IMG/VR virus record: IMGVR_UViG_3300037551_000050
Location: 1 to 36,431 of that record
DNA from: a virus
Length of the DNA stretch: 36,431 nt
Strand: one strand, 5' to 3'
The notes below the pieces were generated by a model. That model did no database searches. It was not told the origin of the DNA and saw only the letters and a program-made list of their open reading frames with translations. Numbering within the stretch: the stretch's first letter is position 1; each line of letters begins with the position of its first letter. Of this stretch, positions 7,649 to 36,431 are shown one piece after another. A program made the translations under genes and the position numbers.

Positions 7649-7682
7649 TAAAGAGAAAGCCAAAGGTGGCCTCTTCTCTTTA
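7649..7682. terminator. Bidirectional terminator between converging genes
   Basis: TAAAGAGAA (7649-7657) pairs perfectly with TTCTCTTTA (7674-7682), with an inner GCC/GGC pair and AAAGGT loop. It starts 5 nt after the plus-strand stop at 7644 and includes the terminase stop codon on the minus strand. T-runs occur on both strands at the base of the stem, fitting a two-way terminator. Confidence 0.65.
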
Positions 7683-9512
7683 GCCATTTGATCCATAGTT
7701 CTCCATGAGTCCACTGTCCTGCATAGGTGCGAAGATATCTGGACGTGGGCGCTCTATACAAGAAGCTAGCAAACACAGCAGCAAAGAATGAAATGCATCA
7801 TCTGCTTTTCCCGGCGGCTTCTTGTACTCGTTCATCCTGAGTCGCACGTTATACTCGGTAAAGATGCTAAGGATATCTGCACCATGTGGGTCCTGAAAAT
7901 CTTCCCACCTGGGCAAGTCAATCTTCTTTGCCTTCAAGGCATTGAAGATATCACTCATGACTTCGGAACGGTGGCACATCCATCGACGCAGGTTTGGCTC
8001 CCAATAGATCTTCTTTTTCTGCCGCGGGTTGTATTGGAACTTCATCACCTTGTTGGCACCAAATCGCTTGATGAGTTTGTCGTTCGGGTAGAAACCACCA
8101 CCATAGTCTACGCCTATGATCTTTACGTGTACCTGAGCCAGCATCTGTGTGATTATATCAAGTTGCTTCTCGGGGTCTAAGTCTTGCCCTGTAAAACGAT
8201 GACACCAGAAAATAGAGAAGTTACCTGTACCAAAATATCCGCCAAATGAGATATGGGTGAAGCTAGATTCGGTGCCCCCTCCCCAATCTATTCCGGCGTA
8301 GATAGACATACCTTGTGCCAATCTTCGGAAAGACTCTATGTCGCCCAATAGAATCTCAGGCTTGCACACAGCTTGTAGTTGTGCCCTGGTGATAGGTCGT
8401 ACGCCGGAATCATAAGACCTTCCCAGCTTCTCATTCATAAATTGGGAGCGAGAGTACTGCTCTTGCGCTATCAGTATCTCTCCCCAGTCTACCCAGGGGA
8501 CCATGATTTGGGGGACACGGTACCCCTCAAAAGTAACCTTGTCCCTGTTGTCTTCCCGCATTGGGTTCATGGCAGCCCATTGCGCCCTGGGGTGCTGCGC
8601 AGAAATAGTCTCGCCGCACTTGTCACAGATTAAACCGGTAGACCCTATGTTTTTCTCCGTCAGAACATTCCAATGCCAAGTGCTCGAGTCCCCAGGTAAG
8701 CCATGCCTCTCACACGGTACTACCCATTCGTTCTGTGTGGAGAATTCTGACCAATAGAATTCAATAGTGTTATCTACGGACTTAGGCGTACCCGAATACA
8801 AGAACATCTTGTACTTAGAGTGAAATGCGCATTGCTCAATGACAGGAATGTTATCGATCAAGATATCTTGAATCTCATCGATCAAAATCTGGTCAGAAGC
8901 AATACCGCGCACTCGATCTGCAGTTAGATATGCATATCGAAGTCTGATTTGAGAATAGTTGATGAACTTTTTGAAGAAGACAGCTTGATTGATGGACGAC
9001 GAGGTATATGCGCGGAGCAAAGGAGATGCATCTATCGCGTCTTTAATACGATCGTTAGAGAATACTTTTGCCTGCTCGGCAGATGGAGCTACGTACAAAG
9101 ATCTAAAGTTGCTGACTAGAGCAGAGTAACAGAGCATTCTGTTACCGAGCGTAGTGGTTTTTTCCGTCTGACGGCCGAAAACTAAGAGTACTTTGTTAGC
9201 AGGAGTATCGTAAACCTTCCGGAGATATTCGCGACCCTTGAATGAGAAGTCTGCTATACGGCCAGCTTCAGGTATACGAATAGCTGTTTCTGCAAACTCG
9301 GATGGAGAGACACCAAGCAGTTCTGTTGATGACGAAGCTCCAGGCAGTATAACTTCTGCAGGTTCTGCATCTATACCGAAGTCGACAGCTTCACCATCTT
9401 CATTATAGTCAAAGACTGGCTCTGCTATTCCATGATCGTCGAAGCAGTAGGATAAAGGAATAGTGTGTGCTGCTTTGAGCAGTTCAGCTTCAGCTAAAGT
9501 AATGGTTGCCAT
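7680..9512 (-). CDS. terL: Terminase large subunit (ATPase-nuclease)
   Basis: The DNA-packaging motor subunit, 610 residues, a usual length for the family. ATPase part: Walker A GRQTEKTT at 113-120 and Walker B ILIDE at 209-213. Nuclease part (RNase H-like): Asp409 in AGIDWGGG, Asp469 in GVDYGGG and Asp571/572 in KADDAFH, the expected acidic cluster. A zinc-knuckle-like CxxH (267-270) and CxxC (296-299) sit between the domains, as in several large phage terminases. Walker A has Glu117 where most terminases have Gly, which is odd although Lys and Thr are kept. The ATG is preceded by a GGA at short distance. It is separated from the small-subunit candidates upstream by a promoter-terminator pair on the other strand, so it may need its own promoter, which I did not find. 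Confidence 0.93.
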   Translation of the reverse strand: MATITLAEAELLKAAHTIPLSYCFDDHGIAEPVFDYNEDGEAVDFGIDAEPAEVILPGASSSTELLGVSPSEFAETAIRIPEAGRIADFSFKGREYLRKVYDTPANKVLLVFGRQTEKTTTLGNRMLCYSALVSNFRSLYVAPSAEQAKVFSNDRIKDAIDASPLLRAYTSSSINQAVFFKKFINYSQIRLRYAYLTADRVRGIASDQILIDEIQDILIDNIPVIEQCAFHSKYKMFLYSGTPKSVDNTIEFYWSEFSTQNEWVVPCERHGLPGDSSTWHWNVLTEKNIGSTGLICDKCGETISAQHPRAQWAAMNPMREDNRDKVTFEGYRVPQIMVPWVDWGEILIAQEQYSRSQFMNEKLGRSYDSGVRPITRAQLQAVCKPEILLGDIESFRRLAQGMSIYAGIDWGGGTESSFTHISFGGYFGTGNFSIFWCHRFTGQDLDPEKQLDIITQMLAQVHVKIIGVDYGGGFYPNDKLIKRFGANKVMKFQYNPRQKKKIYWEPNLRRWMCHRSEVMSDIFNALKAKKIDLPRWEDFQDPHGADILSIFTEYNVRLRMNEYKKPPGKADDAFHSLLLCLLASCIERPRPDIFAPMQDSGLMENYGSNG

Positions 9513-17283: not shown

Positions 17284-18522
17284 CTATTTAACCATAACCT
17301 GCTTAGCTAGTATAGCCTGCAACATACCTGCCTGTGTGGGTATGCCATTTGACGGGTGGGTATGTGTAGCAAGCCACTGCAATAACTGTAGCCCAAGAGT
17401 AGCCGGCTCGGAAGCGTCAGGACCACCTATTTTTGTAAGGGGGGCGTCGATTGTCTTGATCTTAGCCCAAGTCTCGGTGCTTGAGTCTGCACCAGTGATG
17501 CTATGTTTACCTGTGATGGTCTCAGTAACCTTACCTCCCACAGTTAGCGAACGGTCTTTAGTTACCTGAATGGTTTGGTTACGCCCGACCGTCAAGGAAT
17601 CATCCTGCTTCACCTCCACCGTACGAGAGCCAGCCTGCATGGAGTAAGAGTAGCCATCCTTAGATATCCTCAGTACATAGGCCGGGTCTCCTGAAACCTT
17701 ACCACTAGCAGGGTCTATGTTATTGGGTGCAACCACAACCTCTATATATGTCTTTGCTTTAGCATCAGGAGGTTGAGGTTCTGAATCTAGAGAACCGACG
17801 CTCACTTTGATAGAAGCACTCTTATCCTGCGCGAACTCTCTAGTCAAAAGGGTGAACTCAGTAGGTGCATTGCCCCCAGGGTCTTTCTCAACCGGGTGTA
17901 CTAACCAGGACAAGGAACCAGCAGCTGTGTTGAGTTCATAGTTCTCACAGAAGTCACGGATATAATTGTTGATGGGGACATAGGCACGTTGGCAAATATT
18001 CGTAGACCCTATTTGCAGGACCCCACCCCTCTTTAAGATCAAAAAGTTCTCATCTCTGCCCTGTATCCATATGTCTCCTGGGTTCATTACAGGACGACCA
18101 GCACGATAGCTAGCATCCGTAGTCTTAGGTGTGGTCGTGCCACCTGAATTGGTAGTCTGAGCTGGAGGCATATCATCAGGACTCTCTACGTCTGGGTCTT
18201 GCGCTTCTTGTTTCACGTCCCCAGAGACAGCCCCTGTCACCTCTGGGGCTGTGATGAAACCCATAACGAACGGAGATTCCTCATCTGAAGGCCAGCATAG
18301 AACACAGATTGCCCCTACCTCCGGGCAACAGTTGAACCCCTCTCCGTTGTTGTAGTGCAAGTATGGAGACATCACCTGCACTCCAGCCATCTGCTTACCG
18401 CTATGTTGGGCCGTCCAGTCTACGGTCATGTTCTGGGTATTCGCACCTGCGATCACACCTGTCTCGAATCTAGCTGTCCGATTGCCGGTTCTAGCAGCAG
18501 AGTTTCTGAAGGAGGCACCCAT
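17284..18522 (-). CDS. Baseplate spike, gpV/gp5/VgrG-like
   Basis: A 412-residue probable central spike or baseplate assembly protein. The N-terminal part (about 30-110) resembles the gpV OB-fold domain (QMAGVQVMSPYLHYN, VGAICVLCWPSDEESPFVMG). The C-terminal half has repeated short beta units (SLTVGRNQTIQVTKDRSLTV) as in VgrG/gp5 beta-helix needles, followed by a HTHP motif near the end (about residue 390), common in these spikes. The start at 18522 is chosen because GGAG precedes it and its ATG overlaps the polymerase stop as TAATG; a GTG three codons earlier is less likely. Its presence implies a contractile (myovirus-type) tail. It is translationally coupled to the RNA polymerase gene. Confidence 0.8.
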   Translation of the reverse strand: MGASFRNSAARTGNRTARFETGVIAGANTQNMTVDWTAQHSGKQMAGVQVMSPYLHYNNGEGFNCCPEVGAICVLCWPSDEESPFVMGFITAPEVTGAVSGDVKQEAQDPDVESPDDMPPAQTTNSGGTTTPKTTDASYRAGRPVMNPGDIWIQGRDENFLILKRGGVLQIGSTNICQRAYVPINNYIRDFCENYELNTAAGSLSWLVHPVEKDPGGNAPTEFTLLTREFAQDKSASIKVSVGSLDSEPQPPDAKAKTYIEVVVAPNNIDPASGKVSGDPAYVLRISKDGYSYSMQAGSRTVEVKQDDSLTVGRNQTIQVTKDRSLTVGGKVTETITGKHSITGADSSTETWAKIKTIDAPLTKIGGPDASEPATLGLQLLQWLATHTHPSNGIPTQAGMLQAILAKQVMVK

Positions 18523-21500
18523 TAGTACCACTCCGGATGTTCTTTAGGAGGTTTACCCAGCTCGGCGGCAAAAACGATCGCCGGGATAGGATGTAAGCTG
18601 TGTATGTGACTCTGCCATCCTTGTTGAGCTGCCTGGATAACAGTCTTTGCCAAATCCTCGTGGTTGAGCTTCGCCATCCAGTCCTCTTGCATATCCATGG
18701 GTAGTACGTTTACACCCTTCAGTATAGGCTCGTGAACTATTGGCCGCTCTCCCTTAGCCATATGCCTATTCAGAGATGATACATATGTAGTAGGAGCAAA
18801 GTCGCCACGGATAAAGTGTGTAGAAGACCCTGGGTCTTTGATCTTAGTGAGATTAGTAAGAGCCTTGATTACAATCTCATGATTGCGTCTACGAATCCCT
18901 TCTTTTTCGTACATGTCATTTAGATTGCTAGCTAGCAAAGCTTGTACTGGTTCGAGGCCGGTTAGGGGAAGCATCTCATGTGGATTCACACGGCCTTCCG
19001 ATATAGGCAGCCCCTTTTTGACTTCCGTGCCTACTGCCAGTGGTTTCTTATCATAGACAGGCAGTCCTCTAGACTGCGGGATGTAGTGTCGTTCACCCTC
19101 TATGATTACATTGTGACCACCGGCTGTATCCTTCTCAATCTTAGTCACCTTCCCATTCACAGTACTCAAAGTAGCAGAACCAGGAAGGTTCTTAGGGAAC
19201 ATGAGTAAGTCTTGCACCTGCCCAAACTGATCAACAAGGGATGATTTAGATGCTGCAGTGCCTCCGCCATGAAAAGCCTTCATCGCAAGCTGTGTTGCAC
19301 GTTCTCCCAAAGCCTGGCCAGCAAGCACACCCACATTCAAGCCTATCTCTGGAAGGGTGCCATTCTCGGTTAGCCCTATGCATTTTTGACAGAATCCTGG
19401 TCCATGCAGACAACGCAACGGAGACCTAACTACCACCTTACCTACATTGTTGTTCCGGAAAGCACTCCTGAGTTCCGGCGTAATAAGTGTTCCTGTCTTT
19501 ACAACCTTGTTACCTAGCTTAACATCTGCGGCCGTATATCGATCTAAGATGTCCTTCTCATCTATGGATAAGGCAATACCTTTGTCTGTGCCACAGTCAT
19601 GATCTAAGATGAGATTGTTCATCGTAGAGTTTATGACCTGCTTAGTGATGTGCCCAGGCTCTTGAACTGCTTGTACCTTCTGTATAACACCCTTACGCCC
19701 ACCACTAGCAGCTGTCCAATAGCCGGCAATATCAAGACCCTCAGCATAGGACTTTCGCACTGGGATAGGTAGGATTTCCCCTTTGTGGTTGGACATAAGC
19801 ATGGGAGCGGTACGTATTTGCCTGATGGTATCTATACCTCCCTTCATACCCATATTGTGCAGCAACATGAGATTGTTGCCCTCTTCAGGTATGGCTTTTA
19901 GATGGGCATTCAATTCCTCTGTCGCCTTTGTATAGGCTTCAATAGCTTTAGCATCTCTAGTTGGGCCCGACATTTTAGAAACCAGAGCATCGGCTTTGGC
20001 CAAAATTCTATCTCTGGCTTCCCGTTCGGGAGCCAAATCCTTTAGGCCGACAGAGAAGGCAGTCTGGGTAGCCCACATGTTTCCCAAGTCTTTAAGCTTG
20101 TTGATGGACTGCCCATACTCGTTCTTATGCTCCTTCGCAATGCGAGTCATCAGCTCTTCTTGGGCTGATGAGTTTAGCGGGTCCTTCTTCTCTAGATACT
20201 CCCGTCGCATAGCTTCAGGTAAGGCGCCGGCCACCATGAACCTACCTACTGTAGAGTGAATGCCACCAACCTTTACTTGATCTGTGAGCTTGACTTCCCC
20301 CTTTCTTACCGCAGATTCTACATCCTGAATTGTAGAAAACTCGTGGTTGGTGACAGCTCCTACACGTGTAAGACCATACAGACCCAATTTACTTTCGCCA
20401 GAAGGGCTATACATAATCCGACCACTGGCAGGGCTGAATAGGTTGTTAGATGGAAACATCTTGTAGGCTTCAGCAACAGCATCTGAGCCTATCGGTACAA
20501 AGGCTCCCATCGCGTCTCCATCAAAGTCAGCATTGTATGAACTTGTAATCAGCGGTTGTACTTGTATTGCCTTACCACTCACAATTCTAGGTTGTAAGCC
20601 TTGAATACCGTACTTGTGTAGTACGGGGTCTCTCTTCAATAGAATAGGCCGGTGAAGGATAACTCTATCCAACGCTCGATTTACTATTTCCCCACCCTCC
20701 GACAACTTCTTCTGTGCCGCCAAAGGTGAAACCCCTAATAAGTTTCTCAACTCGCGGATTATGAAAGGCTTGTACAGCTCTAACGCCGCAGCTTTTGGTA
20801 TACCTACCTCATCCAAACTAAGGGATGGTTCCGGGATGATGGTTCCACGCATAGTCATGTCTTGCTTACGTGTAACCAGTTGCTCCTGGAAGAAGCCTTC
20901 CTTAGGTTGCCCTACCTTAGAGTCGGTACTTGGATCTATGTGCTTGCCCGAGATATAATCCAATATACCTCTACGAATTCCGTGAGGATATCCGCCAAGA
21001 CCAGACAGAGCACGAAGGCCGTCATACACCTCTTGTCTCAGTTCTACTTTTGATTGATCGTCTTCCGGTATTAGAGGAGACATCTTTGCATAACGTGAAG
21101 CGGTTAGGTGCAGACCCTTGTACAATCCGTTCAAATCTTCTTCGCTAATAGTGCCATCAGGCAAAACAGACAGTGGGCGCATGGACGGTGGCAACACAGG
21201 CACATTCTTCATCATGTATGCATCACGAGCACTCAATCCTGCCCTATCCAAGGCGCTGAGAAACTTGACCTTCTTGTTGGCCGCATCCAGATAGCTGTCT
21301 TTGAGCTTTGGTTTTTGGAGAGCTACAAGAGCTGCAGCCAAGTCTTTCTTCACATCTATCTTACCGAGCATGGCATCAAACGCTTTGCCACCCAACAGAC
21401 AGCCCTTCATTTTCTGTGGGTTTCCGATATGACCCGTGACGGGGTCATACCCCACAGTTCCAGCAACTAGTCCATCGAACTGATTAGATTTGAGCCCAGT

Positions 21501-24500
21501 TAGTTTGGTTATCGCCCCTTCGAACACCGGGTTAGGGAATGCTTCAGGTAGAACAAAATGCGCCCACTGATTTCCTTCCATTCCACCTGTGATCTTAGGA
21601 TCAAATAGACCACCAACTTCCGGCCGCATGGTCTTGGCAACAGTTAGCTTGGCCGGGTCCTTGAGTTCACCATTGCTCATCTCTTTGACTTGCTTGTCTG
21701 TCATGGGTACGAGAGTTAGACTGTTACCAACCTTCTCTACGTTTACATTCAGACCCTTAATCAAACTAATGAACTTGTTGTATGCGAACGTAGGCTTTGG
21801 GGTAGGTAGCATCTCGCCAGCTTGAAGGGCGGCCCAGAACTGATCTCCTTGGCCTGAATCGCTTTTGATCGTGTTCATCTCTCGTAAATTAGAGAGAGCT
21901 CCGTGCCCTAGCATGGCATAAAGACCCAATACACCTAGCGATTGGGCCCCATGGGGCCCGCCTCCTTTAGGTATCTTGTTTTTATCGTAGGCATACCCAT
22001 ACCCCAAAGCTCGAGCACTAAGCTTCTTCTCCACTTGGTGGTGAAGCTTGAGGATATGCATGGGGCCCACTAAGACATCACCCATGGGCCTCCCATTTGC
22101 GGGGTCATAGACTGTTTCTTTATCAGTCAGGCCATGCTTCTCAAGGTCTTGTGTTACTTGCGCATGTAAATCTGCCCCCGGCTTGAAGTTCTTAATGAAG
22201 TAGGTCTTGCCTGTTTTCTCCGCGACCTTAGCTGCAGCTACTTCCAGTACTTGCCCCAGATTGGTTCTGCCAGTTACACCTAGTGGATTTAGTATCACAT
22301 CTAGTGGTCTACCATCCTTGGTGTGCGGAGATTCATGATCAGGTATGATCGCTACGCAAATACCCTTGTTACCATGACGAGCAGTGATCTTATCTCCGAT
22401 CTCTAAGGGCTCCTCAGTCTTTACGTGAACAGCAACATTGGTCCCAGTCTTCACTACCTCTTTCACTACTCCTGGATAGTCTTTGTCCCACGTGATACTC
22501 GCATCTTTGAATGGGCGCACGATTGACTTGTGTAACTTGGATAGCTGCACATCCTCCCGCTTCTCCGATTCATTTGAAGCACGAAGAGCAGCTATGAGAG
22601 TATCACCAGGCATAACCACTGTACCAGGCTTGATCACACCCTCATCATCCAGCTTCTCAGCCTGGGCTCTGTTCATTCCTGTAGGTATGTATGCTTGAAA
22701 CTTACGCTTGTCCAAAACATGAGCTACATCACGTTCTATAGAATGTCTGTGTAGATGCTCACTTGTGAGTCGTTTAGCTGCACTCTCTGTTACTACAATC
22801 CCATCCTCATAATTCAAACCTTTGTAGGGCATAAATCCTACACGTAAATTGGTACCCATAGCCAAAACTCCCCCCTTGGTGAAGTTACTGTCGGCTATTG
22901 TCTGCCCTGCTGATACCTTATCTCCCACCTTAACTATAGGCGTGGAATGCAGGAATGCTTTATCCTCATTCAACGGGAAGTGGTCGTAAATCTGAACCTC
23001 GTGTTTCTTTCCATCTGTGTCTTTGATTACTACTGCATCCGGTTTGATCTGAGTAACAGTACCATCAACACGGCTATGGTGACTGGCAAAGCCACCAATC
23101 ATATGATCAAAGCTATGTGCACCAGCTAAACTTTGTACTAGGGGTACTTCTCTATGCAACAGAGAGACAGCTTGCTCCATTTGTCTTCCGGCCATAGTAC
23201 TTCTATTCGGGTGGTCAGCCGGCATGAAGGGAATCATGTTGGATGCAAACGAGAACATCTGCATCGGGTCTCTCATTACATAATCAGCGCCTTTCATGGA
23301 GCCGTCGTAGATTTCATTCTCCAAGCCACTGATTTTGATTGAGGGCCCTATTGGTACGGGTTTACCATCCACCCACTTCACCTGATCTGGAAGAACAACA
23401 TGAGACTTGTAAGCGACGGTAGGGTTTACATCCTCGTTCTTGCCAGTGTGAAGGTTGTACATCTTTATGGAGACGTCATGACCTTTCTTTTGTACACCCA
23501 CCGGCAAACGTAACACTATACCTGTGGAACTACCTTCGGGAGTTTCTATTGGGTCTAGGAATCCCAGATGCGAAGGATCTATCAGCTTCGCCTCATCCGA
23601 CACAATATGTTCATCTCTAATACCGCCCTTACCCATGATCGTAGTCTTGAACTGGGCTGAGATCATTTCTAGGGGGTTAATCTGACTAGGTACCGAAGCC
23701 AATGAGTTCTTGGAGAACATCTGGCGTATATGTCGATTGAATGTATCGGGGGCTATGATATCTCTAACTTTGTCTCTCTTATCTACCGTGTTTCCAATCT
23801 TGCGTAGGATATCTCGAGAACCCTGGGTGATACGTTCTGCTGCAAAATCCTCCATTGAGTGGAGGTCCTTGAACATGAGTGCGTCCCTAGGATCTGACTT
23901 GGCCTCCCCGCGAGATATCTTGAGTAGCTTGTCCGAAGCATCCAATAGCGTGGCACCAGTTACATTGGGGTGCGCCTTGCCTAACGTAAGCATGTTGACA
24001 TCAGGACTCAGCTTGGTGTCGTCCATGACTTGCCAGAAATGCGCACGCATATCTTCTGGGGTTATGGTAGCTGCAGGCTTGAGACCTGTATCAGCCTTGT
24101 AGAACTTGGACAATGCCTTCGGCATGTCTGAATGATTGGCTACTGCTATGTCCTTACCCCACCGCTTCTCTACCTCTTCTTCCGGCACTCCCATAGCATG
24201 CAGTAAGGGTTTCAAAGGTATGTTGGAGTTGCCATACCCCATAGAGAACTCACGAGTGGCCGGATCAAAGTGAATCTTGAATCCACCACCAAGAGCATTG
24301 AAGTGAGATTCCAATGCACCATCAGCCTTAACCATATTGTATACGCCAGGCTTCAACCGCCACTGGTTATCTACTTGGTACTCCTGGCCATCCACAATGT
24401 GGCTATAGCGATTAGTAAGTTTGGGCAGGTTCATCAACCTGATCTTTTGTCTATCGAGCACTTTACCAGTAGCATTGTCCTTCAAGGAAACCGTAGCCTC

Positions 24501-24701
24501 TACTGGTACTGTCCATGACTTACCCTCAAGTTTGGCCTCTTTCTGAGACCGGGTATCATAACTACTTAGAGTATCTCGGACAGTCACATCATGAAGTTCT
24601 AGCGTGTTCTTCTTCCCTGCTATCGGGAAGAGACCACTGACTGCCTTTTGTACTCGGTCTTTGAGGAGATCAAACCCCTCTTCCGGGTCAAGACGTGCCA
24701 A
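18522..24701 (-). CDS. Single-chain beta/beta-prime RNA polymerase
   Basis: A 2059-residue fusion of both catalytic subunits of multisubunit RNA polymerase. Beta part (1 to about 985): FLDPIETPEG (P384), NYEDGIVV, GDKITARHGNKG (from G769) and DVILNPLGVTGR. Beta-prime part from about 1005 (MSNGELKDP at M1008): LPPSMRPL, then the active-site NADFDGDAM with Mg-binding Asp1392/1394/1396, the complete second zinc site (Cys1703, 1764, 1771, 1774) and the trigger-loop region GERATQLAMKAFHGGG (H1811). The beta-prime N-terminal zinc ribbon is missing. It is shorter than E. coli beta plus beta-prime because lineage insertions are absent. The start is TTG with AGGAG upstream. No alpha, omega or sigma gene is seen here. 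It lies at the head of a virion operon and is coupled to the spike gene, which suggests late expression and possibly packaging. Confidence 0.96.
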   Translation of the reverse strand: MARLDPEEGFDLLKDRVQKAVSGLFPIAGKKNTLELHDVTVRDTLSSYDTRSQKEAKLEGKSWTVPVEATVSLKDNATGKVLDRQKIRLMNLPKLTNRYSHIVDGQEYQVDNQWRLKPGVYNMVKADGALESHFNALGGGFKIHFDPATREFSMGYGNSNIPLKPLLHAMGVPEEEVEKRWGKDIAVANHSDMPKALSKFYKADTGLKPAATITPEDMRAHFWQVMDDTKLSPDVNMLTLGKAHPNVTGATLLDASDKLLKISRGEAKSDPRDALMFKDLHSMEDFAAERITQGSRDILRKIGNTVDKRDKVRDIIAPDTFNRHIRQMFSKNSLASVPSQINPLEMISAQFKTTIMGKGGIRDEHIVSDEAKLIDPSHLGFLDPIETPEGSSTGIVLRLPVGVQKKGHDVSIKMYNLHTGKNEDVNPTVAYKSHVVLPDQVKWVDGKPVPIGPSIKISGLENEIYDGSMKGADYVMRDPMQMFSFASNMIPFMPADHPNRSTMAGRQMEQAVSLLHREVPLVQSLAGAHSFDHMIGGFASHHSRVDGTVTQIKPDAVVIKDTDGKKHEVQIYDHFPLNEDKAFLHSTPIVKVGDKVSAGQTIADSNFTKGGVLAMGTNLRVGFMPYKGLNYEDGIVVTESAAKRLTSEHLHRHSIERDVAHVLDKRKFQAYIPTGMNRAQAEKLDDEGVIKPGTVVMPGDTLIAALRASNESEKREDVQLSKLHKSIVRPFKDASITWDKDYPGVVKEVVKTGTNVAVHVKTEEPLEIGDKITARHGNKGICVAIIPDHESPHTKDGRPLDVILNPLGVTGRTNLGQVLEVAAAKVAEKTGKTYFIKNFKPGADLHAQVTQDLEKHGLTDKETVYDPANGRPMGDVLVGPMHILKLHHQVEKKLSARALGYGYAYDKNKIPKGGGPHGAQSLGVLGLYAMLGHGALSNLREMNTIKSDSGQGDQFWAALQAGEMLPTPKPTFAYNKFISLIKGLNVNVEKVGNSLTLVPMTDKQVKEMSNGELKDPAKLTVAKTMRPEVGGLFDPKITGGMEGNQWAHFVLPEAFPNPVFEGAITKLTGLKSNQFDGLVAGTVGYDPVTGHIGNPQKMKGCLLGGKAFDAMLGKIDVKKDLAAALVALQKPKLKDSYLDAANKKVKFLSALDRAGLSARDAYMMKNVPVLPPSMRPLSVLPDGTISEEDLNGLYKGLHLTASRYAKMSPLIPEDDQSKVELRQEVYDGLRALSGLGGYPHGIRRGILDYISGKHIDPSTDSKVGQPKEGFFQEQLVTRKQDMTMRGTIIPEPSLSLDEVGIPKAAALELYKPFIIRELRNLLGVSPLAAQKKLSEGGEIVNRALDRVILHRPILLKRDPVLHKYGIQGLQPRIVSGKAIQVQPLITSSYNADFDGDAMGAFVPIGSDAVAEAYKMFPSNNLFSPASGRIMYSPSGESKLGLYGLTRVGAVTNHEFSTIQDVESAVRKGEVKLTDQVKVGGIHSTVGRFMVAGALPEAMRREYLEKKDPLNSSAQEELMTRIAKEHKNEYGQSINKLKDLGNMWATQTAFSVGLKDLAPEREARDRILAKADALVSKMSGPTRDAKAIEAYTKATEELNAHLKAIPEEGNNLMLLHNMGMKGGIDTIRQIRTAPMLMSNHKGEILPIPVRKSYAEGLDIAGYWTAASGGRKGVIQKVQAVQEPGHITKQVINSTMNNLILDHDCGTDKGIALSIDEKDILDRYTAADVKLGNKVVKTGTLITPELRSAFRNNNVGKVVVRSPLRCLHGPGFCQKCIGLTENGTLPEIGLNVGVLAGQALGERATQLAMKAFHGGGTAASKSSLVDQFGQVQDLLMFPKNLPGSATLSTVNGKVTKIEKDTAGGHNVIIEGERHYIPQSRGLPVYDKKPLAVGTEVKKGLPISEGRVNPHEMLPLTGLEPVQALLASNLNDMYEKEGIRRRNHEIVIKALTNLTKIKDPGSSTHFIRGDFAPTTYVSSLNRHMAKGERPIVHEPILKGVNVLPMDMQEDWMAKLNHEDLAKTVIQAAQQGWQSHIHSLHPIPAIVFAAELGKPPKEHPEWY

Positions 24702-33318: not shown

Positions 33319-34014
33319 ATGGATGAAAAGTTTACACGAGAACGTATGTTAAACCTCGTCAAAGATCAACAGAAGCAGCACGGAAGTGCAGAAGTCTACG
33401 CTATGTGCCTGTCACCACAAGCAGAGAAAGACATAGAGGGATGGGGTATGTCAGATTTGGAAAAGATTTTCTTCACGAAATGGAGAGCATTGATCAAACA
33501 TCCATCATCGACCAAATTTGAGCTTAGATTACGTGAATGTATTACCCTATTTCTGGGAACAACCCCAATATACGATTGCCCTGAAACAAAAGTTATGCCT
33601 TTCAGGGATCTGAGCACAGAAGAAAAAAGCAAGTATCTCGAACAACGTAGGAAATATGTGCATGCACTTGATCCCAGCACAACAAAAGGAAAGGGTCAAA
33701 GGAACGAGACTTTTACAAAAGAACGGCTTCTAAAACTAAAACAAGATCAACAGAAGCAGCACGGGAACGATGCGGATTTTGTGACGTGCCTAACACTGCA
33801 ATCAGAAAAGGACATAGAGGGCTGGGATGAGGAGAGTCTGGGGAAAATTATATACACAAGAATTCAGCAAGGGGCTAGTGCACGGGAATGCTTTGGAATG
33901 CTTATGGGAACAGCCCCTATGTACGACTGCTGTGAAACAAAGATGGTTCTTTTAAGCGAGCTGACACCAGCAGAAAGAGAACAGTTGTTTGAACAGCGGA
34001 AAATGTGGGGCTAG
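33319..34014 (+). CDS. Hypothetical protein made of two tandem repeats
   Basis: Unrecognised 231-residue protein composed of two related units (about 5-113 and 132-230). Shared landmarks are FT-R/K-ER-hL, DQQKQHG, EKDIEGW, a P-x-YDC-ETK block, and L-hE-QR near the end. Part of the repeat is still identical at DNA level (21 nt near 33363 and 33747), while much has diverged. Each unit has two to four Cys but no clear zinc-finger spacing. GGAG lies 8 nt before the ATG and promoter P6 is just upstream. Internal duplication usually gives a pseudo-dimer; the partner is unknown. Confidence 0.75.
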   Translation: MDEKFTRERMLNLVKDQQKQHGSAEVYAMCLSPQAEKDIEGWGMSDLEKIFFTKWRALIKHPSSTKFELRLRECITLFLGTTPIYDCPETKVMPFRDLSTEEKSKYLEQRRKYVHALDPSTTKGKGQRNETFTKERLLKLKQDQQKQHGNDADFVTCLTLQSEKDIEGWDEESLGKIIYTRIQQGASARECFGMLMGTAPMYDCCETKMVLLSELTPAEREQLFEQRKMWG

Positions 34015-34553: not shown

Positions 34554-36431
34554 ATGGCCGACCTGCATTTGATCAAGAGAGATCCTGACAAGGGTTACTT
34601 CGGTAGGCAGCTGTGGATACCAAAGAAACATGTGAACGTACGATCGATCAAGGCAGGGTTAGAATTTCCTGTGGTGGGAGAAGAGGGTATTGATTACAAA
34701 CAGCTGTGGGAAGAAAACGAGACACACATCATAGTACCTAGAGAATTCATTCCCAGAGATCAGTACCCCCTTCTCTCATTTCCCATTATCCAAACTGGCC
34801 CTACTACCTTTCCCGCTATCAAATTCAAGAGTCGAATAGAGCTAGATAAGAAGAAGCCACACCTAACGCTTCAGAGAGACGCATTCAAAGCAATGTGCGC
34901 CGCTCGAAGTGGAATCTTGAACCTAGCTTGTGGCAAGGGAAAATCAGTAATATCGTTACATCATATAGCTAGTCGGGGTGTGCCAGCATTGGTAGTCGTG
35001 AATAACACCACACTCATAAATCAATGGAGTGGCTTCATTAACAAGTTCTTGGAGGTAGAAGGTGGTATTGGATTAGTGCAAGGGCCACCAGATACTTGGG
35101 ATTGGGAAAGAAGAGGCATAGTAATTGTTATGATCAATTCTCTATCCTTGCGATATGAAGAGCTGCCGGATGGTTTTGATCGATACTTCGGAGGGGTATA
35201 CTATGATGAGTGTTTTGTAGCCGGCACCCCTGTAGATGGGGTACCTATAGAATCCAGGCATGTGGGGGATATAATCAGATCGTATGATGAGGCAACAGAT
35301 ACCATTACTATTGGTCGCGTGACCAAGACAAGCAAGACACGTCCAACATCACTGGTATGTCTGTGTGTAGAAGGTACGACATACTATTGCACGCCATCCC
35401 ACCCATTCAGAACCGCAGGTGGGTGGGTACATGCTGGTGAGCTGGTAACAGGAGACTACATAAAGGGAGCAGATAATGCCAAACATAGAAACCGTATGCA
35501 CAGTTTGCCAGCAACCAGTAGTGCTGAGCAGCAGACACAAGAAGTACTCATTCAGAAAAACGGGGAGAGCCTACTGCTCCAAGAAATGTTTCATAGACCG
35601 ATGCAGGAATATCTGGTCGGAGACCATGAGAAAGACCAACATATCCAGATCGGACATTCTGTCCGAACGTATGAAGAAGCACAACCCCATGGACAACCCA
35701 GACACCAAGAAACGTGCGTGGGCAAAACTAAGCAAAATGCATTTGAAGCCAACGGTACAAGGAGGGAACGGGAAGCCAGCACCTGTACCTCAGATGAGTC
35801 TATATACTGCCCTAAGGGAGAAAGAGCGGGGATGGTTCTTAGAGCATATAGTTCAGACGAACAAGCCAAGATACAAGGGCAGCTACCCAACACACTACAA
35901 ACTAGATATAGCGAACCCAGCCAAACTGATATGTGTGGAAGTAGACGGGAGATCCCATCACGGAGTGAGAAAAGTACAAGACAAGAAGAAGGACAAGCTC
36001 TTACGTGGTTTAGGGTGGACAGTGTTGAGATTCTCGAACCGGGAAGTGATCAGACATTTGGCGGAGTGTGTCCAGACGGTTTTGTCTACAATCTAGAAGT
36101 GGCTGATACCCACACATATCTTGCGGGTAACCTGGTTGTTCATAATTGTCATCATCTTAGTGCTCCTCTATTTGTAAACTGTGCGCCTCTGTTTTACGGA
36201 GCACGGTACGGACTGACAGCAACAGTCAACAGAGAGGATGGTCTCGAGTCCATCTATCAGTACCACATCGGTCCTGTCTTCTTCCGTGACCTGATGCAAG
36301 ATCTAAAGCCTCGTATCTACATCCAAGAGATGCCAACTCACATCAACTTCCAGGACCCTGAGGTCAAGAAGGAGATATCAGACTGCAGGGGTATGCCAAG
36401 CATACCCAAGCTTCGTGGGTATCTGTGTACC
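34554..36431 (+). CDS. SF2 DNA helicase interrupted by an intein (partial)
   Basis: The frame is open to the right edge (626 codons seen). The N-extein (219 residues) has Walker A LACGKGKS (124-131). Motif II, DECHH, is split: DE at 218-219 and CHH from residue 532, with an intein of 312 residues between them. After it comes GLTATVNREDG (motif III type). The set fits UvsW/XPB/ResIII-type SF2 helicases, which phages use for recombination, repair and fork restart. AGGAGAG lies 4-5 nt before the ATG. Without splicing the ATPase motif is destroyed, so function depends on the intein. The C-terminal helicase domain continues outside the window. Confidence 0.9.
   Translation, partial: MADLHLIKRDPDKGYFGRQLWIPKKHVNVRSIKAGLEFPVVGEEGIDYKQLWEENETHIIVPREFIPRDQYPLLSFPIIQTGPTTFPAIKFKSRIELDKKKPHLTLQRDAFKAMCAARSGILNLACGKGKSVISLHHIASRGVPALVVVNNTTLINQWSGFINKFLEVEGGIGLVQGPPDTWDWERRGIVIVMINSLSLRYEELPDGFDRYFGGVYYDECFVAGTPVDGVPIESRHVGDIIRSYDEATDTITIGRVTKTSKTRPTSLVCLCVEGTTYYCTPSHPFRTAGGWVHAGELVTGDYIKGADNAKHRNRMHSLPATSSAEQQTQEVLIQKNGESLLLQEMFHRPMQEYLVGDHEKDQHIQIGHSVRTYEEAQPHGQPRHQETCVGKTKQNAFEANGTRREREASTCTSDESIYCPKGERAGMVLRAYSSDEQAKIQGQLPNTLQTRYSEPSQTDMCGSRREIPSRSEKSTRQEEGQALTWFRVDSVEILEPGSDQTFGGVCPDGFVYNLEVADTHTYLAGNLVVHNCHHLSAPLFVNCAPLFYGARYGLTATVNREDGLESIYQYHIGPVFFRDLMQDLKPRIYIQEMPTHINFQDPEVKKEISDCRGMPSIPKLRGYLCT
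35211..36146 (+). mobile_element. Intein with intact splicing blocks, 312 aa
   Basis: In the helicase frame, block A starts CFVAGTPVDG (Cys1). Block B is YYCTPSHPF with the Thr and His expected for the N-to-S shift. Block F/G is YNLEVADTHTYLAGN then VVHN, followed by Cys+1. All key residues (Cys1, TxxH, penultimate His, terminal Asn, +1 Cys) are present, so splicing is expected. The roughly 200 residues between the B and F blocks contain no LAGLIDADG or HNH motif in this frame and look low in information; a separate endonuclease ORF occupies the same DNA in the +1 frame. Insertion is between E and C of the DECH motif, a conserved site typical of inteins. Confidence 0.93.
35476..36096 (+). CDS. 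Out-of-frame homing endonuclease (DUF559/Vsr-like)
   Basis: A 206-residue protein encoded entirely within the intein but one base out of frame with it. N-terminus: CTVC (residues 8-11) and CSKKC (about 34-38), a zinc-finger-like pair of pairs. A NUMOD3-like NPMDNPDTKKRAWAKL segment (about 70-85) follows, typical of homing endonucleases. C-terminus: a DUF559/Vsr-type nuclease, KLDIA, then CVEVDGRSHH, then KDKLLRGLGWTVLRFSNREV, giving the D/E-x-D-H and Lys set of the PD-(D/E)xK/EDxHD class. AGGGAG lies 6 nt before the ATG, so it can be translated on its own. It presumably cuts an intein-less helicase allele to spread the element. Whether it is also made by frameshifting cannot be seen. Confidence 0.88.
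   Translation: MPNIETVCTVCQQPVVLSSRHKKYSFRKTGRAYCSKKCFIDRCRNIWSETMRKTNISRSDILSERMKKHNPMDNPDTKKRAWAKLSKMHLKPTVQGGNGKPAPVPQMSLYTALREKERGWFLEHIVQTNKPRYKGSYPTHYKLDIANPAKLICVEVDGRSHHGVRKVQDKKKDKLLRGLGWTVLRFSNREVIRHLAECVQTVLSTI

Follow-up and report, generated by a model that had tools for sequence, protein, structure and literature searches.

We analysed a window of 36,431 nucleotides (nt), comprising positions 1 to 36,431 of the IMG/VR virus record IMGVR_UViG_3300037551_000050, at the end of which an SF2-type helicase gene carries an intein whose homing endonuclease is encoded in another reading frame of the same DNA. The splicing protein occupies the helicase frame (frame 0) and the endonuclease is overprinted upon it in the +1 frame. 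For the reading of this element as a mobile SF2-helicase intein with an overprinted +1 endonuclease, including the splicing, homing and split-intein steps proposed below, we estimate a probability of about 0.9. The component parts, with Shine-Dalgarno (SD) and open reading frame (ORF) features, AlphaFold2 (AF2) models and their predicted local distance difference test (pLDDT) values where applicable, are as follows.

34554 to 36431, plus strand: XPB/SF2-type helicase ORF with the intein inside, assigned by profile matches and running past the window end.
34554 to 35210, plus strand: N-extein, its last residues being the Walker B DE (empty alleles L124 and L125 read ...YYDE/THHLSAP, the slash here and below marking the insertion point).
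35211 to 36146, plus strand: intein of 312 codons, contiguous in frame 0, assigned by blocks A, B, F and G, Pfam, AF2 and Foldseek.
35211 to 35480, plus strand: predicted N-terminal half of the splicing (Hint) domain, spanning residues 1-90 of the intein (AF2 pLDDT above 90).
35462 to 35469, plus strand: SD-like AAAGGGAG for the internal ORF (anti-SD duplex -7.6 kcal/mol).
35476 to 36096, plus strand: predicted homing endonuclease of 206 amino acids in the +1 frame, assigned by DUF559, AF2 and a Vsr-like fold.
35493 to 35990, plus strand: frame-0 linker, about residues 95-260, doubling as endonuclease gene; stop-free, predicted disordered and unconstrained.
35497 to 35589, plus strand: Zn-ribbon-like CxxC...CxxxC of the endonuclease (C8, C11, C34, C38), invariant in eight aligned sequences.
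35938 to 35982, plus strand: predicted catalytic E155-D157-H161-D169 (EDxHD pattern), from conservation in 66 homologues.
35991 to 36146, plus strand: predicted C-terminal Hint half, spanning residues 261-312 (AF2 pLDDT 89-97).
36024 to 36096, plus strand: doubly constrained tail, where the endonuclease C-terminus lies on intein strands and block F, defined by four-fold synonymous divergence.
36147 to 36431, plus strand: C-extein, its first residues being CHH (+1 Cys).

The helicase ORF matched PHROG 16 DNA helicase (1.8e-16), Pfam ResIII (9.9e-6) and NCBIfam XPB (partial, 4.3e-12), and the insertion point lies inside its Walker B motif (DE/CHH), with the intein spanning C220 to N531. From 34554 to 36431 frame 0 forms one stop-free ORF, open across the whole intein, and the splicing blocks that had been described as intact are all present, namely A (CFVAGT), B (TPSHPF), F (GFVYNLEV) and G (VVHN) followed by the +1 Cys, with the splicing residues C1, block B H64 and H311-N312 in place. 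Among 56 homologues C1 and N312 were invariant, and the Pfam Intein_splicing profile was matched in 54 of them (5.6e-7 for the window). AF2 modelled the linker at a pLDDT of about 47, with values of about 45-58, between two Hint halves at around 90 or better, and the Foldseek matches to the intein model were themselves inteins (4o1r, TMt 0.79; 3ifj, TMt 0.75). In its splicing residues, Hint fold and precise insertion relative to intein-free homologues the element thus has the properties of an intein, and would be expected to splice. It is not of the split type, both splicing halves being in one stop-free ORF, nor of the canonical full-length type, the endonuclease being outside the splicing frame. 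An intron was considered and set aside: Rfam gave no match at the gathering threshold in the window, and the reading frame is open.

The 206-residue +1 product was assigned to DUF559 by Pfam (6.8e-11) and was modelled by AF2 with a pLDDT of 92.5. Its catalytic half was closest in fold to NGO0050 (3hrl, Z 13.1), I-Bth0305I (3r3p, 11.6) and Vsr (1cw0, 10.0), and a profile search likewise gave 3hrl (1.2e-12) and 3r3p (0.0024). D157, H161 and D169 were invariant among the 66 homologues, with E155 conserved in at least 90%, and both these residues and the I-Bth0305I/Vsr fold point to an endonuclease of the EDxHD/Vsr type, for which DNA cleavage is predicted. Of the three parts originally ascribed to this protein, the DUF559/Vsr nuclease and the Zn-ribbon-like cysteine set were recovered, and the NUMOD3-like segment was not, as no NUMOD3 match was given by Pfam in any of the 66 homologues. 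The overlap between the two proteins extends beyond the linker, since the structured C-terminal splicing domain is overprinted by the final ~24-29 codons of the endonuclease, whose stop TAG straddles the intein codons for L-E.

The arrangement is not peculiar to the window phage. Homologue searches, to which scans of IMG/VR and GTDB genomes contributed loci L009-L123, and in which the register was called with nuclease profiles and profiles of both Hint halves, resulted in 93 loci having the nuclease at +1 and none at +2, with 73 of the loci below 90% endonuclease identity and with phage isolates, environmental viruses and bacterial metagenome-assembled genomes among the sources. The host ORFs were mostly SF2/SNF2 helicases, as well as AAA+ clamp-loader-like ATPases, and nearly all insertion sites were in or adjoining Walker B. 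In annotated phages, tblastn with the endonuclease gave 40 records, from Vibrio, Pseudomonas and Corynebacterium phages, with nearly all matches inside genes annotated as helicase, nucleoside triphosphatase (NTPase) or hypothetical protein; in the seven representatives examined the nuclease was at +1 to an intact intein frame in all seven. A plasmid search gave no match, and at one locus (L037) the nuclease was present with no intein profile match nearby.

We next considered selection on the two frames. When each nuclease gene was shuffled among synonymous codons, keeping protein and codon usage, a mean of 6.6 intein-frame stops was expected in the window; none was seen, a count that was never reached in 2000 shuffles, and the third frame across the endonuclease contained 20 stops. 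Over the 73 loci, 56 intein-frame stops were seen versus 680 expected (about nine per locus), and the third frame, with 1244 seen versus 1160 expected, showed no depletion. The intein frame was without a stop across the endonuclease in 69 of the 73 loci, with all 56 stops falling in the remaining four, of which three are split inteins at the neutral stop level and one (L076) has a single stop. At the family level, contiguous inteins hence avoid stops and split ones accumulate them, in agreement with the earlier suggestion that they had been purged. If a frameshift from sequencing or assembly had moved an ordinary endonuclease out of the intein frame, the starting state would not be without precedent, since seven distant relatives (L081-L085, L087 and L088) do have a nuclease of this type in the intein frame, in textbook style, at 27-28% identity and in a phage head-protein-like host ORF with HN/CRC at the end. 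Such an error would however have to recur at both ends of each of the 93 loci, drawn from many different assemblies and isolates, always giving the same +1 register, and in spite of the strong frame-0 stop avoidance. As the loci include separately sequenced phage isolates, we regard sequencing error, named at the outset as what would make the overlap vanish, as excluded, with a residual probability that is negligible.

The endonuclease protein itself is under purifying selection, with a ratio of nonsynonymous to synonymous substitution rates (dN/dS) of 0.04-0.2 in close pairs (above 75% identity) and up to 0.39 in more distant and less reliable ones, the pairs not all being independent. Substitutions were concentrated at the third codon positions of the nuclease, which correspond to first positions in the intein frame, and in frame 0 the linker had an apparent dN/dS of 1-4.6, its nonsynonymous share being that of a simulation with nuclease-only selection and no frame-0 stops (z -1.1 to 1.9). 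In the tail, four-fold synonymous divergence was 0.117 versus 0.371 in the linker (family-wide, Fisher p = 2e-12), and both proteins are therefore constrained there. These results showed that selection preserves the endonuclease protein and a stop-free frame 0, leaving the linker residues free. The possibility that frame 0 encodes the functional protein, with the +1 ORF decaying as a relic, has a parallel in a Planctomycetota metagenome-assembled genome (L100, 1-6453), where a 2151-codon host frame contains an intein together with a truncated +1 nuclease. No support for decay was found for the window, and the low nuclease dN/dS, the conserved catalytic residues and the unconstrained frame-0 linker refute a relic at the family level and make one highly improbable; general decay among homologues, which might have counted against the original prediction, is not what was found.

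With regard to how the endonuclease is produced, the AAAGGGAG lies 6 nt upstream of its ATG, as expected for a separate +1 gene with a ribosome site of its own. An anti-SD energy of -7 kcal/mol or lower was found for 63% of the endonuclease starts compared with 17% of matched out-of-frame starts in exteins, the highest of 200 such control sets reaching 31%, and the GAGGT that forms the SD in several phages is built from the intein's own D-E-V codons. We infer that translation starts at the internal SD and ATG. The uniform +1 register would also suit programmed ribosomal frameshifting from the helicase frame, giving a fusion of N-extein, N-terminal intein half and nuclease. In 26 of 60 contiguous loci, however, no more than five open codons precede the first ATG of the nuclease frame, and in five that frame is closed directly before the start, so that little or no room remains for a shift. 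These properties, together with the SD enrichment favouring internal initiation, render programmed frameshifting improbable. The proposal of two overprinted proteins with an independently initiated endonuclease is consequently supported by selection, structure and comparison alike, with translation and splicing as the steps that would follow from them.

Mobility was indicated by alleles without the element. The site is empty (DE/THH) in near relatives of the window helicase with spliced-protein identities of 85.4% (L124) and 83.8% (L125), which were taken from IMG/VR because tblastn of the N-extein against the phage collection gave no match at 1e-8. The empty alleles as a whole (L124, L125 and L127-L130) had spliced-protein identities of 83.8-98.7%, with 98.7% between K391 (filled) and PS17B.1 (empty) and 92.2% between 104E43.1 and 142E35-1. 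The presence of filled and empty alleles among such near relatives means that the element comes and goes by precise steps, for which homing would be the natural explanation. In a comparison for co-conversion, identity around L004/L127 was 0.95-0.98 in the 60 nt upstream, with no clear rise downstream. The element could instead be a domesticated regulator, with the intein delaying helicase activation, the nuclease serving the phage, for example in competitor exclusion, and little homing today. Insertion at Walker B would keep the helicase silent until splicing, and phage homing nucleases can mediate exclusion; presence and absence between 98.7% identical helicases nonetheless indicates current mobility, and we consider domestication unlikely. 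As a separate observation, a 60% relative of the window helicase (L126, 3501-5700) has a different intein at Walker A (C/GKGKT), with an HNH-like motif in frame as judged by eye, and is empty at DE/VHH.

The three loci at the neutral stop level (L036, L042 and L045) have an N-terminal half that ends near the nuclease start and a C-terminal half that starts separately inside the nuclease 3' end, and are therefore split inteins. Their host is a helicase-like gene (C/GAFPKP), with the same nuclease overlapping both halves. The fourth locus, a clamp-loader-like gene (L076, 2962-5106) with a single linker stop versus 14.7 expected in the intein frame, may reflect either a recent split of the intein or an error in the sequence. 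In a midpoint-rooted nuclease tree with a poorly resolved backbone, the in-frame group was far off (branch 3.06), the split loci formed one clade and L076 fell inside the contiguous clade. A single origin of the +1 register, as one old event inherited by the family, would fit this tree best.

In the proposed mechanism, ribosomes in frame 0 would produce a precursor of the helicase, and the Hint domain should excise itself from this precursor, restoring DECHH, whereas ribosomes entering at the internal SD and ATG would produce a free EDxHD/Vsr-type endonuclease. Alleles without the intein would be the expected target of this enzyme, with cleavage at the Walker B codons, upon which repair would copy the whole element in. 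Because nuclease output would be independent of frame 0, nonsense mutations in that frame could yield a split intein with the nuclease in between, a route that fits the three split loci and the single-stop locus. Several points weigh against this account. The Foldseek E-value of the endonuclease is modest (0.007) beside its Z of 10-13, the extein-derived SD controls leave intein-specific composition incompletely controlled, and the SD is weak or lacking at some loci (L011, L035 and L061). Furthermore, L076 is known from one contig, and the direction from contiguous to split is tentative, given one split clade, its uncertain placement and the midpoint root. The more far-reaching proposal, of a previously undescribed, old and widespread intein class with a +1 overprinted and independently initiated mobility enzyme, its register gained once, which spread among the Walker B sites of phage and bacterial NTPases from many families and is a stepping stone to split inteins by nonsense mutation, is tentative, and we would give it slightly less than even odds.

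As for the remainder of the window, a terminase large subunit (7680-9512, minus strand; PHROG 675, 4.6e-56) confirms by its profile match the assignment to a tailed-phage genome fragment. At 18522-24701 (minus strand) a single chain of 2059 residues combines Rpb2_3 and Rpb2_6 (beta-type) with Rpb1_1/2/3/5 (beta'-type) RNA polymerase domains and one NADFDGD motif; it is read as a phage beta-beta' fusion polymerase, with distant likeness to those of Vibrio phages D69/D181/D148 (about 31%) and Salmonella phage Arash. A 231-residue protein at 33319-34014 (plus strand) is apparently one unit in two tandem copies, its gene having a 53-nt direct repeat at 33331 and 33712 (77% identical), and a Pfam search with it gave no match.

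Canonical full-length inteins have a homing endonuclease (LAGLIDADG or HNH) in the splicing frame; the window element shares with them a Hint domain with a nuclease likewise placed between its two halves, but its nuclease is in a different frame and is not included in the protein that is spliced out. The mobile-intron enzyme I-Bth0305I and the repair enzyme Vsr both have the catalytic fold and the E-D-x-H-D pattern of the window endonuclease, although neither overprints a splicing protein. In the systems of Dassa et al. 2009, intein and host are reportedly split into separate genes. These split inteins have the same nuclease class between the intein halves, whereas the window intein is contiguous with an overprinted nuclease, its split relatives being L036, L042 and L045. 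PMC12350094 cites Dassa et al. 2009 for fractured genes and split inteins in which the intervening endonuclease belongs to a new (EDxHD/Vsr) family. In phage ShiLan an out-of-frame HNH endonuclease lies in a methylase gene without an intein (PMC11855218). There, too, the host frame is open through an insertion hiding an endonuclease in another frame, with a disjunct distribution in phages, but ShiLan has no splicing domain, an HNH-class enzyme and a GTG start in the third frame without detectable SD, compared with a complete Hint intein, an EDxHD/Vsr-class enzyme and the +1 frame with an SD in the window. A literature search turned up no description of an intein that contains an out-of-frame endonuclease, though a preprint by Gosselin et al. 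(2025) on 'non-canonical' phage inteins may overlap; judging from its title and its citation for overlapping frames in PMC11855218, it possibly concerns related arrangements.

Recurring in dozens of divergent phage and bacterial genes, the overprinted intein-endonuclease design is a type of mobile element that is real, old and widespread. It places two proteins with opposite needs on one stretch of DNA as a stable strategy, in which the parasite's cutter is uncoupled from splicing while the host gene is still read through. It makes a large addition to the known prokaryotic overprinted genes and accounts for the 'helicases with long insertions' of publicly annotated phages. Finally, it offers a testable route to split inteins, together with many new Hint domains having a linker that tolerates almost any sequence.
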